From Microcaldota archaeon (GTDB lineage Archaea > Micrarchaeota > Micrarchaeia > Micrarchaeales > Micrarchaeaceae): a stretch of DNA of 47,602 bases. Position numbers and translations under genes: made by a program. Shown piece by piece: positions 30,047 through 33,495 of this stretch (position 1 is its first letter; each line of letters opens with the position of its first letter). The stretch covers positions 84,434-132,035 of the forward strand of contig JAJZOR010000003.1 of the NCBI GenBank assembly GCA_021811435.1. Direction: 5' to 3'. Under the pieces are notes generated by a model. It worked only from the letters and a program-made list of their open reading frames with translations. It was not told where the DNA came from and made no database searches.

Positions 30047-30156
30047 GCAGGGGTTGCAGAGTCTGGTCTGGCTGAAGTGTAAAGCCACGGAAAATCGCGC
30101 AGGACTTAAGATCCTGTGGCTTAGCGCCTTCGTGAGTTCAAATCTCACCCCCTGCA
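30047..30156 (+). tRNA. tRNA-Leu(UAA), with an insertion in the D-loop
   Basis: Acceptor GCAGGGG/CCCCTGC (30047-30053, 30149-30155), anticodon stem CAGGA/TCCTG around loop CTTAAGA giving UAA, a long variable arm (GGC...GCC) as in class II tRNAs, and T-arm GTGAG-TTCAAAT-CTCAC. Discriminator A30156 and no CCA. The D-arm reads normally up to TCTGGTC, but 24 extra bases precede the expected AAT-CGCG return. After removal the D-stem has one A-C mismatch, so I am less sure of the exact splice site. Its 3' 37 bases are repeated at 33253-33289. Confidence 0.85.
30069..30092 (+). other. Probable non-canonical intron in the D-loop of tRNA-Leu
   Basis: The inserted bases form TGGCT (30069-30073) paired to AGCCA (30083-30087), leaving short single-stranded pieces at each border as in a bulge-helix-bulge substrate. 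Borders could move by one or two bases. The D-loop without it has the usual class II form with conserved GG. Confidence 0.65.
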
Positions 30157-30193
30157 CATTCAAATCACGACGACAGAGCATGGTTCAGAAATC
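30120..30193. repeat. Left attachment repeat (tRNA 3' end plus start of int)
   Basis: Seventy-four bases covering the last 37 bases of tRNA-Leu, a 23-base spacer and the first codons of int. It matches 33253-33326 at 73 positions. The element is thought to enter at the tRNA 3' end, leaving the tRNA intact. Confidence 0.9.
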
Positions 30194-31025
30194 CCGGAAT
30201 CGAATCTTCACGAAAGAAGATTTTGAGGAAATTTCTGAATCCCTCAAGTTTGTGTCCATGAAAGTCTCATGGCACCAATTACAACAGCTGCAGTCCATTC
30301 TTCACAAAGCGCAGACAAAGAGATTTTCCGGCAAGAGGAAGACGCCGAAATATGGCTCTCTATCGAAGGCGTTTTCCGACATACAACTTCAAAGGTTTCT
30401 CCACGTAATAGACTCTGACAAGTTCCGCCTGCTATTCAAGTACCAGGCTCAACTTGGGCTTAGAATAGGCGAGGCGGTCAGAGTCAACATAGGCAGCATA
30501 GATCTTGAAACAAGGGAACTCACATTGAAGACAGAAAAGACGAAAGTCATCGATTCGCTACTTATCCCTATTCCCTTGTTCAAGGAGACCGTAGCCTTCA
30601 TATCAAAGCATGGGGCCGAGATTGGCGCGGCTCAGGGCTTCCTGTTTTACAAAGATAAATCGTGCGACATGCGGCTGGAGCCTTTTCTGGAACAGAACTA
30701 TGTCAGGAACAGGTTCAGGGCCTACGTCCGGATAGCAGGGTTGGATGAGGTGTACGACACCTCAGATGAAACAAGCCCAGACAGGGGGGTTAGGCATCTG
30801 CATAGGTTCACAACGCACAGCCTCAGGCACTACGCGATAACCAGCTTCGCGAAGCAGACAAATGGGAATGTGGTGCTTACAAGTCGCTTTGCAAGGCACT
30901 CTGATCCCAGCACAACGATGACCTACATAAGCACAAGGAAAGAGGAGCTCTACAGGGAGATAGACAACACCTTTGGGCTTAGCCAAGCCGTTGGCCTGAA
31001 AGCAAGGCTTTCCAAGCAAGTTTAG
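30180..31025 (+). CDS. int: Tyrosine recombinase/integrase of the element
   Basis: Two parts are visible: an N-terminal core-binding helical domain (residues 1-65) and a catalytic domain with the complete active site: Arg95 in GLRIGEAV, His213 and Arg216 in THSLRHY, His240 in RFARHSDPS and the nucleophile Tyr249 in TMTYIST. Length 281. ATG 30180 lies inside the left attachment repeat, so the gene would remain intact on integration. An open frame extends further upstream through the tRNA but has no start signal. It should catalyse integration and excision at the tRNA-Leu site. Confidence 0.92.
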   Translation: MVQKSRNRIFTKEDFEEISESLKFVSMKVSWHQLQQLQSILHKAQTKRFSGKRKTPKYGSLSKAFSDIQLQRFLHVIDSDKFRLLFKYQAQLGLRIGEAVRVNIGSIDLETRELTLKTEKTKVIDSLLIPIPLFKETVAFISKHGAEIGAAQGFLFYKDKSCDMRLEPFLEQNYVRNRFRAYVRIAGLDEVYDTSDETSPDRGVRHLHRFTTHSLRHYAITSFAKQTNGNVVLTSRFARHSDPSTTMTYISTRKEELYREIDNTFGLSQAVGLKARLSKQV

Positions 31026-31051
31026 CCGCTTTCCAAGGCCATGGACCCCGT

Positions 31052-31369
31052 CTTTATCTGGTGCCACAACTTTATCTGGCTGGAGCGATTCAGATAAAGT
31101 CGGGCTTACGACGACAAGCCAGAAAACCTCAAAATTTCTCTGACGGAGGGCTTTACATAGGTAATATGGCGCAATCAGATAAAGCCCGCAGATAAAGTCG
31201 CGGTTATCGAAAACATGGAATCCAGCTTGGAACAAATCCTGAACTTGGAACGAATGTTCCAAATCGTTCCAAGTCGGGCTTACGACGACAAGGCCAAAAA
31301 GGCCGGTTTTCTGTCGTCGGGCGTCTCGCCATTCTTAAATGGCGTGGTTGTTCCAAGAAAACGTTCCAA
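31052..31369. repeat. Iteron-like repeat field (replication or control region)
   Basis: CTTTATCTG at 31052 and 31070 and its reverse CAGATAAAG at 31091, 31176 and 31189 give five copies of a 9-mer. TTGGAAC at 31227 and 31245 and its reverse GTTCCAA at 31256, 31266, 31350 and 31363 give six copies of a 7-mer. Two copies of a 21-bp direct repeat with core GGGCTTACGACGACAAG stand at 31098-31118 and 31272-31292, each after one of the short motifs. Mixed direct and inverted short motifs between int and the cargo genes resemble a plasmid origin or a binding array for the element's own regulator. Confidence 0.7.
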
Positions 31370-31621
31370 GCCGCCCGCAGCCCGCCGAGCGCCAGCGTAA
31401 GCTGGCTTAGAGGCGGGCGCAGGGCGGCTCGCTTGCCAAGCTAGAAGGCTGCGTTTGCCCCCACCCAAACGCAGCCGCTTGAGCTGACTGTGCGCCTCCG
31501 GTTGCGAAGGCTGGCCCAGCTCGTAGGTACCTTTGAAGGCTAGTTGAAGCCGCTGCTTGATTGCAAGCTTAAAGCTCATGGGAGCGACCCCACGTAAGAT
31601 GAACGGAGCGAAGCTTACGTG
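31369..31621 (+). ncRNA. Candidate structured RNA in the integrated element
   Basis: First domain, 31369-31429: three nested perfect helices, AGCCGCCC/GGGCGGCT, CCCGCC/GGCGGG and GCCAGC/GCTGGC, capped by GTAA, a GNRA tetraloop on this strand, with internal loops GCAG/CGCA and GAGC/TTAGA. Second, 31447-31476: 11 bp GGCTGCGTTTG/CAAACGCAGCC with an 8-base loop. Third: GAGCTG/CAGCTC (31481-31486, 31517-31522) enclosing a small GCCT/AGGC stem. Fourth, 31591-31621: CACGTAAG/CTTACGTG with a 15-base loop. There is no convincing reading frame, and the stretch is the most GC-rich in the element. It could equally be DNA structure for replication. Confidence 0.5.
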
Positions 31622-31670
31622 CTGGGTTTAAGGATAACGCTTAAAGTCTCTAAACACCAGATTATAAAAT

Positions 31671-32360
31671 ATGTGCGAACAATGCGAAGATGCTAATTGT
31701 ACTTGTGTATGTGATTGGGTACCCAGTTTTCGCGAATTCAGGCCCAATAGGCTGGATAGCATAGAATCTCCACCATGCGCTGCATGTGGACATGGTAATC
31801 GCTGGCTAAAGTGGAATCAAACCACACCTGTTAGTATAAAAATGGAAGATTTTAAAGCCGTCATAAATAAAAGGAAGGAATTTAGCAAAGAACAGAAGGA
31901 GTACATCTCAAAACTGCAACATTACAAATGTAAAATGTGCAAGGAGAGATTAGGAGCATTTCCACACGGAGATCATAAACTCCAAAAATTAAAGGGTGGG
32001 GTTTCTACAACGACCAACTTGCAAATGTTATGTGCTGATTGCGATGTAAGGAAGACTGCGGAGGAACATAGACAAAATGCGCTACAAAAAAAGCAATTAA
32101 AACCGATAGATGTCGAAGTGGATGGAGCAATAATAGAAGTTATAGATACTGCGTTATTAAATGCAGTGTACGCTAAAGATTTAACAGTAGAAGAAAAAGA
32201 GGACATAATATACAAGAGATTTAAGCAGATTGAACGGTATACTGGCACATGGATTGGAAAGAGCAGCTATTTTAAACCAGTAACTGGGAACAGCAGAAAG
32301 ATAAGCACGGTAAGAAAAGCTTTAGAACAGTATCTGAAAACTAAAATTACAAGAGCTTAG
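31671..32360 (+). CDS. HNH nuclease with N-terminal cysteine cluster
   Basis: The 229-residue protein starts MCEQCEDANCTCVCDW and has a second CxxC pair in PPCAACGHG (residues 36-39), suggesting a zinc-binding head. Residues 87-124 are an HNH domain: CKMC (87-90), the catalytic PHGDHK (99-103), NLQML with Asn116 and the second zinc pair CADC (121-124). The C-terminal 100 residues are basic and helical, ending in KISTVRKALEQYLKTK. It should cut DNA, or could be a DNA-binding component. Composition is A/T-rich and codon use is unlike the host genes. It is five bases ahead of the GIY-YIG-like gene in the same direction. Confidence 0.82.
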   Translation: MCEQCEDANCTCVCDWVPSFREFRPNRLDSIESPPCAACGHGNRWLKWNQTTPVSIKMEDFKAVINKRKEFSKEQKEYISKLQHYKCKMCKERLGAFPHGDHKLQKLKGGVSTTTNLQMLCADCDVRKTAEEHRQNALQKKQLKPIDVEVDGAIIEVIDTALLNAVYAKDLTVEEKEDIIYKRFKQIERYTGTWIGKSSYFKPVTGNSRKISTVRKALEQYLKTKITRA

Positions 32361-32365
32361 ATAAA

Positions 32366-33079
32366 ATGGATAAACAATTCATCCTCGAGGAGATAAAAAG
32401 AACTGCTAGAGAGAATGGAGGTAGGCCCTTAGGCCGCGAGGTTTTTCAGAAGCAGACTGGTATCAAACCTTATGACTGGTTTGGGAAATATTGGATTAGA
32501 TGGGGAGACGCGCTCAAAGAAGCCGGCTTTGAACCTAATGCACTCAAAATCGCCATTCCAAAAGAACTACTTTTAGAGAAACTGTGCCGGTTAACTAGAG
32601 AATTAGGACATTTCCCAACACGGGGTGAACTACAACTTAAAATAAATAGTGATGAGACATCTCCAAGCTTTTCTGTTTTTATGCGTCTAGGCAATAAGCG
32701 TACTGCAGTATTAAAACTAATAGACTATGCTAGACAACATAATTATGACGATGTAATTAAACTCTGCCAAGTGCCACAACCTTCTAGCACTACCAAAGAA
32801 GCTCCAAAAAAAAGTAACCAAATAATCGGGTCTGTGTATCTTATAAAGTTTGGAAAGTATTACAAAATTGGTAGGACAAACGCATTAGGGAGAAGGAAAT
32901 ATGAAATTGAATTGCAACTTCCTGAAAAAGCAAGGTTAATACACGAAATCAAGACAGACGACCCCATTGGTATCGAGGCGTATTGGCACAACAGGTTCGA
33001 TAAATATCGTACTAATGGGGAATGGTTTGTGCTTACACAAACGGAGGTTAATGCGTTTAAGCTAAGGAGATTTATGTAA
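32366..33079 (+). CDS. MUG113/T5orf172 (GIY-YIG-like) nuclease with homing-endonuclease-associated repeats
   Basis: Residues 1-130 hold two helical repeats (ILEEIKRTARENGGRPLGRE and LLEKLCRLTRELGHFPTRGE), the pattern of homing-endonuclease-associated DNA-binding repeats. Residues 155-237 are a GIY-YIG-like domain of the MUG113 class: GSVYLIKFGKYYKIGRT, then the candidate catalytic Glu204 in IEAYWHNRF and the NGEWFVLT end. It would be a DNA endonuclease with a sequence-reading N-terminal part. Length 237. It follows the HNH gene after five bases, and both are A/T-rich, so they look like one acquired cassette. Confidence 0.8.
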   Translation: MDKQFILEEIKRTARENGGRPLGREVFQKQTGIKPYDWFGKYWIRWGDALKEAGFEPNALKIAIPKELLLEKLCRLTRELGHFPTRGELQLKINSDETSPSFSVFMRLGNKRTAVLKLIDYARQHNYDDVIKLCQVPQPSSTTKEAPKKSNQIIGSVYLIKFGKYYKIGRTNALGRRKYEIELQLPEKARLIHEIKTDDPIGIEAYWHNRFDKYRTNGEWFVLTQTEVNAFKLRRFM

Positions 33080-33089
33080 GCTAATAGAG

Positions 33090-33113
33090 GTTCAGATTTC
33101 CGGAAATCTGAAC
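33090..33113. repeat. Perfect 24-base palindrome after the nuclease pair
   Basis: GTTCAGATTTCC followed by its exact reverse complement stands 10 bases after the GIY-YIG-like stop. It can act as a terminator hairpin without a loop spacer, or as a binding site for a dimeric protein. It is the only palindrome of this length noticed near the element. Confidence 0.6.
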
Positions 33114-33252
33114 GCTAGTTGCTTATATATCTTGCTCGGCCATAATCTATGGTTCGGATGAATCTGCTCGGGCTTAGAATTTTATGTTGTTTTTGGTGTT
33201 AAATATGGCTAGGAATATCGGCGTGGAAACTGCTAGGCTAGACTCCCGGACC

Positions 33253-33326
33253 CTTAGCGCCTTCGTGAGTTCAAATCTCACCCCCTGCACATTCAAATCA
33301 CGATGACAGAGCATGGTTCAGAAATC
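33253..33326. repeat. Right attachment repeat
   Basis: A copy of the last 37 bases of tRNA-Leu with the following int leader and first codons, differing from the left copy at one base. It has no matching 5' tRNA half. The bases before it (33080-33252) carry only the palindrome and A/T-rich promoter-like sequence. Confidence 0.9.
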
Positions 33327-33495
33327 TGGCAGGACAATCATTCCAAAAGAGGATTTCACAGAATTTTACGAGAGCCTCAAGCAGGTGTCCATGAATATAT
33401 CATTGCATGGGTTACAGCGATTACAATTTATTTACCTCAAGTACAAACAAAAAGGTTTTCAGGAAAGAGAAAAACGTCAAAATATGGATCGCTGA
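33313..33495 (+). pseudogene. Broken N-terminus of a second integrase
   Basis: Starting in the right repeat, the frame gives MVQKSGRTIIPKEDFTEFYE, which matches the first residues of int but with many substitutions. After about 45 codons the resemblance moves to another frame (QTKRFSGKRKTSKYGSL), so there is a frameshift, and the match stops near 33497, where the MscS gene ends. The divergence is too large for a simple duplication of the present int, so it comes from a related element that used the same site earlier. Confidence 0.8.

Follow-up and report, generated by a model that had tools for sequence, protein, structure and literature searches.

Small tRNA-targeting elements of Micrarchaeota with a conserved structured region, probably RNA, and exchangeable cargo

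An integrated element at tRNA-Leu(UAA)

The window, a 47,602-nt stretch of contig JAJZOR010000003.1 from a Micrarchaeota genome, contains an insert of 3,133 bp at a tRNA-Leu(UAA) gene. The insert comprises an integrase gene, a field of repeats, a non-coding region that folds, and genes for an HNH and a GIY-YIG protein. It is flanked by two 74-bp direct repeats on the plus strand, attL (30120-30193) and attR (33253-33326), which are identical at 73 of 74 positions and lie 3,133 bp apart from start to start; the similarity of the direct repeats runs on to 164 nt at 79% identity. These repeats bear out the initial annotation, which had described an element with exact ends at tRNA-Leu, and its claim is backed by around 30 relatives of the same plan, 13 of which, besides the window element, are bounded by att repeats. 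The target tRNA gene (30047-30156, plus strand), identified from its sequence and a weak Rfam tRNA match, has its 3' part rebuilt by the element. This gene carries an unusually long, intron-like insertion in the D-region (TGGCTGAAGTGTAAAGCCACGGAAAAT) and was overlooked by ARAGORN; a comparable D-region insertion is present in the same tRNA of locus L033 and of genomes G002 and G003.

The tyrosine integrase gene (30180-31025, plus strand) is intact, as had been claimed: its full-length reading frame matches PF00589 with an E-value of 1e-10, and the catalytic residues of tyrosine recombinases are conserved in the family alignment, with an HxxR motif (HSLR). The two genes previously described as nuclease-type are also recognizable as such. 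The first encodes an HNH endonuclease-like protein of 229 amino acids (31671-32360, plus strand; PF01844, E 1.5e-5) with a weak PADLOC REase_II match and no homologues in 98 related genomes. The second (32366-33079, plus strand) encodes a GIY-YIG nuclease-like protein of 237 amino acids (MUG113/T5orf172) with homing-endonuclease-associated repeats (HNH_repeat), relatives of which, at 61-63% identity, lie behind a tRNA-Glu element in genome G003 and behind tRNA-Leu in genome G124. Phages yielded a distant T5orf172 match for the GIY-YIG protein and none for the HNH protein, and AlphaFold models of the two (pLDDT 64 for GIY-YIG and 38 for HNH) were too poor for a fold search. Pfam and PHROGs searches of the window element's proteins returned integrase and nuclease families only, with no viral, conjugation or transposase hallmarks; nor was a replication gene found in the element, in agreement with the earlier description. 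The window element thus displays both features of a cryptic integrated element, namely an integrase with att direct repeats at a defined target, and an absence of hallmark genes.

Upstream of attR lies a conserved right end (33089-33252) with palindromes resembling the tRNA T-arm. The attR repeat leads into the 5' end of another integrase gene, a truncated one (33312-33495, plus strand); this stub comprises the first ~60 codons of an older integrase and is the remnant of an earlier element. Because attR opens this older stub, the newer element must have entered a tRNA that was occupied before, and the locus is a tandem insertion of two elements, the older of which has decayed to leave ~180 bp of integrase gene. 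At the same tRNA locus in genome G002, of the same genus, att copies occur at four successive positions, two of them preceded by right-end sequence, while in genome G003 att is present and the integrase has been lost to a decayed remnant. No clean empty site was found; the locus is polymorphic in the genus (G002, G003). As a side observation, the tandem att copies of locus L124 (G002:C11:34000-46000) mark tRNA-Leu(UAA) as an insertion hotspot.

A family of elements with a shared plan

The window's own host genome (1.1 Mb in 25 contigs) holds about eight full or near-full copies of the integrase, together with fragments, and ten copies of the folded region. A scan of a genome collection revealed 28 further integrase loci, all in MAGs recorded as Micrarchaeota or Marsarchaeota, and at a cut-off of E ≤ 1e-30 the integrase is present in 101 of the 295 genomes of the phylum. 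A related integrase is also present in a further family of the class (f7), in whose genomes no structure copy turned up. No relatives were recovered from viral contigs searched with the integrase, the GIY-YIG protein and the structure motif, or from plasmids searched with the integrase, and we found no description of such elements in the open literature, including that on Micrarchaeota and DPANN mobile elements. The window insert is one copy of a widespread and apparently undescribed family of small Micrarchaeota mobile elements, whose cargo-bearing copies nearly all contain the folded region.

Members of this family reside at tRNAs for eight amino acids (Leu, Glu, Gln, Pro, Ser, Ala, Arg and Val), and in nearly all oriented loci the integrase gene starts directly behind the tRNA. 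The 14 elements bounded by att repeats, including that of the window, range from 1.55 to 7.1 kb. The common plan of the family runs from the tRNA and att through the integrase gene, often followed by toxin-antitoxin genes, to the structured region, the cargo, the conserved right end and the second att. The right end, of ~160 nt, shows ~79-90% identity across 130-170 nt at most of the ~30 loci, and abuts attR in the bounded elements. Structure and cargo occur together in each of the 11 bounded elements measuring 3 kb or more and are both missing, as checked with filters off, from the three minimal ones (1.55-1.87 kb). In most relatives no stop interrupts the integrase frame up to the tRNA or through it, and the first ATG or GTG often comes only at about codon 25. 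At loci L043, L045, L013, L019, L014 and L015 the left end and the first integrase codons contain copies of the target's T-loop motif at constant intervals.

The window element had been described as built around an RNA or DNA structure plus two nucleases. The first half of this description holds for the family as a whole; the nucleases are exchangeable cargo, of which the HNH gene is unique to the window and the GIY-YIG gene recurs, so that the same cargo is found in different elements. Elsewhere in the family we find toxin-antitoxin-like genes (HicA, DUF2283, DUF4258), restriction-modification genes (Eco57I-type methylases and a BsuBI/PstI restriction enzyme), an N4/N6 methylase with a NucS-like nuclease, a PD-(D/E)XK nuclease, Schlafen/AlbA_2, ParA, a transposase and redox enzymes, as well as some proteins without any family match. 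The restriction-modification and toxin-antitoxin genes of these other members make the earlier suggestion of a defence island plausible. A restriction-modification system pairs its nuclease with a methyltransferase, and the window element has no methyltransferase beside its HNH and GIY-YIG genes. The two nucleases would serve defence. Cargo is not the only exchangeable part. The window element and locus L009 agree at 91% in the repeat and structure region, whereas the L009 integrase is only 62% like the window's, compared with ~81% among Leu-type integrases, which indicates that modules have been exchanged.

The left ends also carry traces of the target. In several non-Leu elements, copies of a T-loop motif are spaced at -74, -25 and +17 from the first integrase codon, and these copies match the letters of the target tRNA: they read GTTCAAAT or GTTCGAAT, and GGTGCGA where the target is an Ala tRNA whose T-loop has those letters. 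That the copies track the target suggests that the integrase recognizes the T-arm of its target tRNA. Most members also have a ACGACGACAA-like motif 12-16 nt past the end of the tRNA, and the motif reappears in the repeat field.

Anatomy and conservation of the structured region

The integrase gene of the window is followed by a repeat field (31040-31367) of two homologous units, each with inverted and direct repeats (CAGATAAAG type, then GTTCCAAG type) and a ACGACGACAAG att-like motif. Two repeat types thus stand in succession in the window; across the window element and loci L011, L013, L022, L037 and L047 the repeats before the structure vary by element (CAGATAAAG, GTTCCAAG, CATGTAGAG, CATGTGGAGT) and the layout is constant. 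A TATA-like sequence, CATTCTTAAATGG, lies ~40 nt upstream of the folded region and may act as its promoter. The folded region itself, on the plus strand, comprises hairpin 1 (31370-31428), a two-tier stem with a covarying tip; hairpin P0 (31447-31476); an extra hairpin seen only in several members of the genus (31482-31522); and a multi-branched core (31525-31635), supported by the covariance model and by covariation, in which a closing stem encloses hairpins A, B and C and a long arm D. Hairpins B and C have GUUG-like loops and the long arm is bulged. Folding of positions 31360-31670 gave -137 kcal/mol (z = -4.8), with none of 100 shuffles as low. The large folded non-coding region noted in the initial annotation is therefore upheld, and it is conserved in other loci, with a size of ~200-270 nt across the family.

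Blast detects the non-coding region again in elements that occupy other tRNAs or belong to other genera, and single-sequence folds of these copies are alike. A covariance model (R1) trained on six loci with the window left out finds the window copy at 82.6 bits and gives ~30 matches at E < 1e-3. Among 29 sequences, 22 of the 30 pairs have changed on both sides; the covariation score, in an alignment fitted to the structure, is 0.383, against 0.126 ± 0.011 for shuffled and at most 0.081 for slid controls. In a sequence-only MAFFT alignment of a longer region from 15 members the structure scores 0.316 (shuffled 0.118 ± 0.011; slid at most 0.059), and RNAalifold, unprompted, predicts 42 pairs from this alignment, 19 of them with compensatory changes. 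Nearly all frames of the structure are interrupted by stops in 15 members. A search of the window element and six related loci with 4227 Rfam covariance models, at gathering and permissive thresholds, returned tRNA and chance-level matches only. A likeness of the core to twister-sister was considered and dropped, as the hairpins covary independently and an Rfam match is absent. The arrangement also differs from IscB/OMEGA systems, in which a protein with RuvC and HNH domains lies beside its guide RNA: the HNH protein of the window has no RuvC match, and other elements carry the structure without HNH.

Across the phylum the structure is present in 59 of 295 genomes and 32 of 125 genera, in two families. 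An integrase is present within 4.5 kb of 45 of the best 87 matches; in 44 of those 45 cases the structure is downstream of it on the same strand. About half of the best matches in the phylum have no detectable integrase nearby; among 20 such copies examined, about half have a decayed integrase or a tRNA upstream, with integrase fragments or a gap at the gene's expected place near the tRNA, and some have neither.

Interpretation and relation to known systems

We consider it likely that the window insert is a self-integrating cryptic element with its own tyrosine integrase, carrying cargo of the defence type and probably a new non-coding RNA. The integrase would insert the element at the T-arm and 3' end of tRNA genes, and the element would presumably be excised as a circle. 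Its core consists of the left att and integrase gene, often a toxin-antitoxin pair, and the conserved right end, to which most copies add a block of repeat/operator field, ~200-270-nt structured region and one to several cargo genes. The structured region would most likely be a non-coding RNA transcribed from its own promoter, and may control the cargo or the element. The cargo commonly consists of restriction or other defence-type genes, with HNH and GIY-YIG nucleases as the window's version, and the window element has joined a relative that now survives as the 180-bp integrase stub. Two observations count against this reading: the many structure copies in the phylum with no detectable integrase nearby, and the G-U and A-C counts given below.

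The structure might instead be a cis-acting leader of the cargo operon, a 5' UTR element that acts, for example, as regulator or attenuator, in which case it would not be an RNA in its own right. We regard this as possible, at a lower level of confidence. The structure lies on the cargo strand, as a rule with 13-130 nt between it and the first cargo gene (the first reading frame falls within this range in 30 of 44 cases), bounded elements without cargo lack it, it stays beside cargo after loss of the integrase, and locus L013 has two structure-plus-cargo blocks. By contrast, TATA-like sequences between structure and cargo start in some members (L011, L016 and L097) suggest a separate cargo promoter, and in locus L012, which has lost its integrase, the right end directly follows the structure with no cargo.

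It is rather unlikely that the structured region acts as DNA, as a single-strand or conjugative origin or a recognition site by which a helper replicates or moves the element. The fixed orientation and position of the structure, the iteron-like repeats just upstream of it and the lack of a replication gene in the window element would fit such a role, as would the 35 G-U and 20 A-C cells in the structure, counts that are compatible with DNA folding and leave RNA and single-stranded DNA poorly distinguished. However, several unrelated member types share a TATA-like motif 40-53 nt upstream, loop and hinge letters are conserved as in RNAs with tertiary contacts, no Rep or relaxase occurs among the cargo proteins searched, and the minimal bounded elements still look mobile without the structure. 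We favour an independent RNA or a cargo leader over a role as DNA.

The presence of a tyrosine recombinase and of a structured site adjoining variable cargo, together with the two blocks of L013 and two adjacent structures in locus L031, recalls integron-like cassettes captured at folded single strands; we hold this to be very improbable, given that there is usually one structure per element, no integron-type array of matching sites was seen in the elements, the structure is far bigger than an attC site and the right end has a different conserved sequence. Least credible of all is an ordinary cryptic element of unrelated genes, with a duplicated tRNA fragment as its repeat and GC-rich noise as its fold: integrase elements of small size that lack replication genes have been described, down to 2.6 kb (Krupovic et al., 2019; PMC6563490), but the conserved right end, the covarying structure, an architecture repeated at many tRNAs and the covariation controls all speak against it.

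Returning to the non-coding RNA, we lean slightly towards a new class of ~200-270 nt that serves as a recurrent working part of a new family of DPANN mobile elements; these would carry defence cargo from one tRNA gene to another, and the arm sites of their integrase would copy the T-arm of the target. The exact ends, marker integrase and covariance model make these elements findable in any Micrarchaeota genome. The family may offer a route for the exchange of cargo and defence genes in reduced symbiont genomes, its T-arm mimicry is a clean comparative system for change of integrase target, and its strongly covarying structured region, probably RNA, is without known relative.

The elements form a new family of small integrative elements in archaea. 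Their general kind, the cryptic integrated element, is already known; the structured region as a regular family part is apparently new. In Thaumarchaeota, cryptic integrated elements carry an integrase and mixed, mostly unknown genes between att repeats, and some, as short as 2.6 kb, have no evident replication gene (Krupovic et al., 2019; PMC6563490). The window element is likewise small, with integrase and att repeats and no replication gene; the Thaumarchaeota elements have no discernible signature genes, whereas integrase, right end and structured region recur in the Micrarchaeota family. Archaeal SSV-type (suicidal) and pNOB8-type integrases are tyrosine recombinases that act at tRNA 3' ends with att sites of ~40-50 bp (Badel et al., 2021; PMC8371274). 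The Micrarchaeota integrase is of the same class and has the same targets. Unlike SSV-type genes, which are split by integration and encode PF16795 (Phage_integr_3) with KxxR, it remains a full-length reading frame beside attL in the window and its relatives and matches PF00589 only, and its HSLR differs from the YxxR of the pNOB8 type. GOLLD, ROOL and HEARO are large structured RNAs linked to mobile elements; the Micrarchaeota elements share with them a sizeable covarying structure, probably RNA, and differ in that permissive Rfam searches of the window element and six related loci found no match. Bacterial mobilizable genomic islands carry an integrase with restriction-modification and toxin-antitoxin genes and no transfer genes of their own, some consisting only of integrase, origin and cargo. 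The Micrarchaeota elements resemble them in combining integrase with defence cargo, and differ in having no identified origin or helper and in being much smaller.
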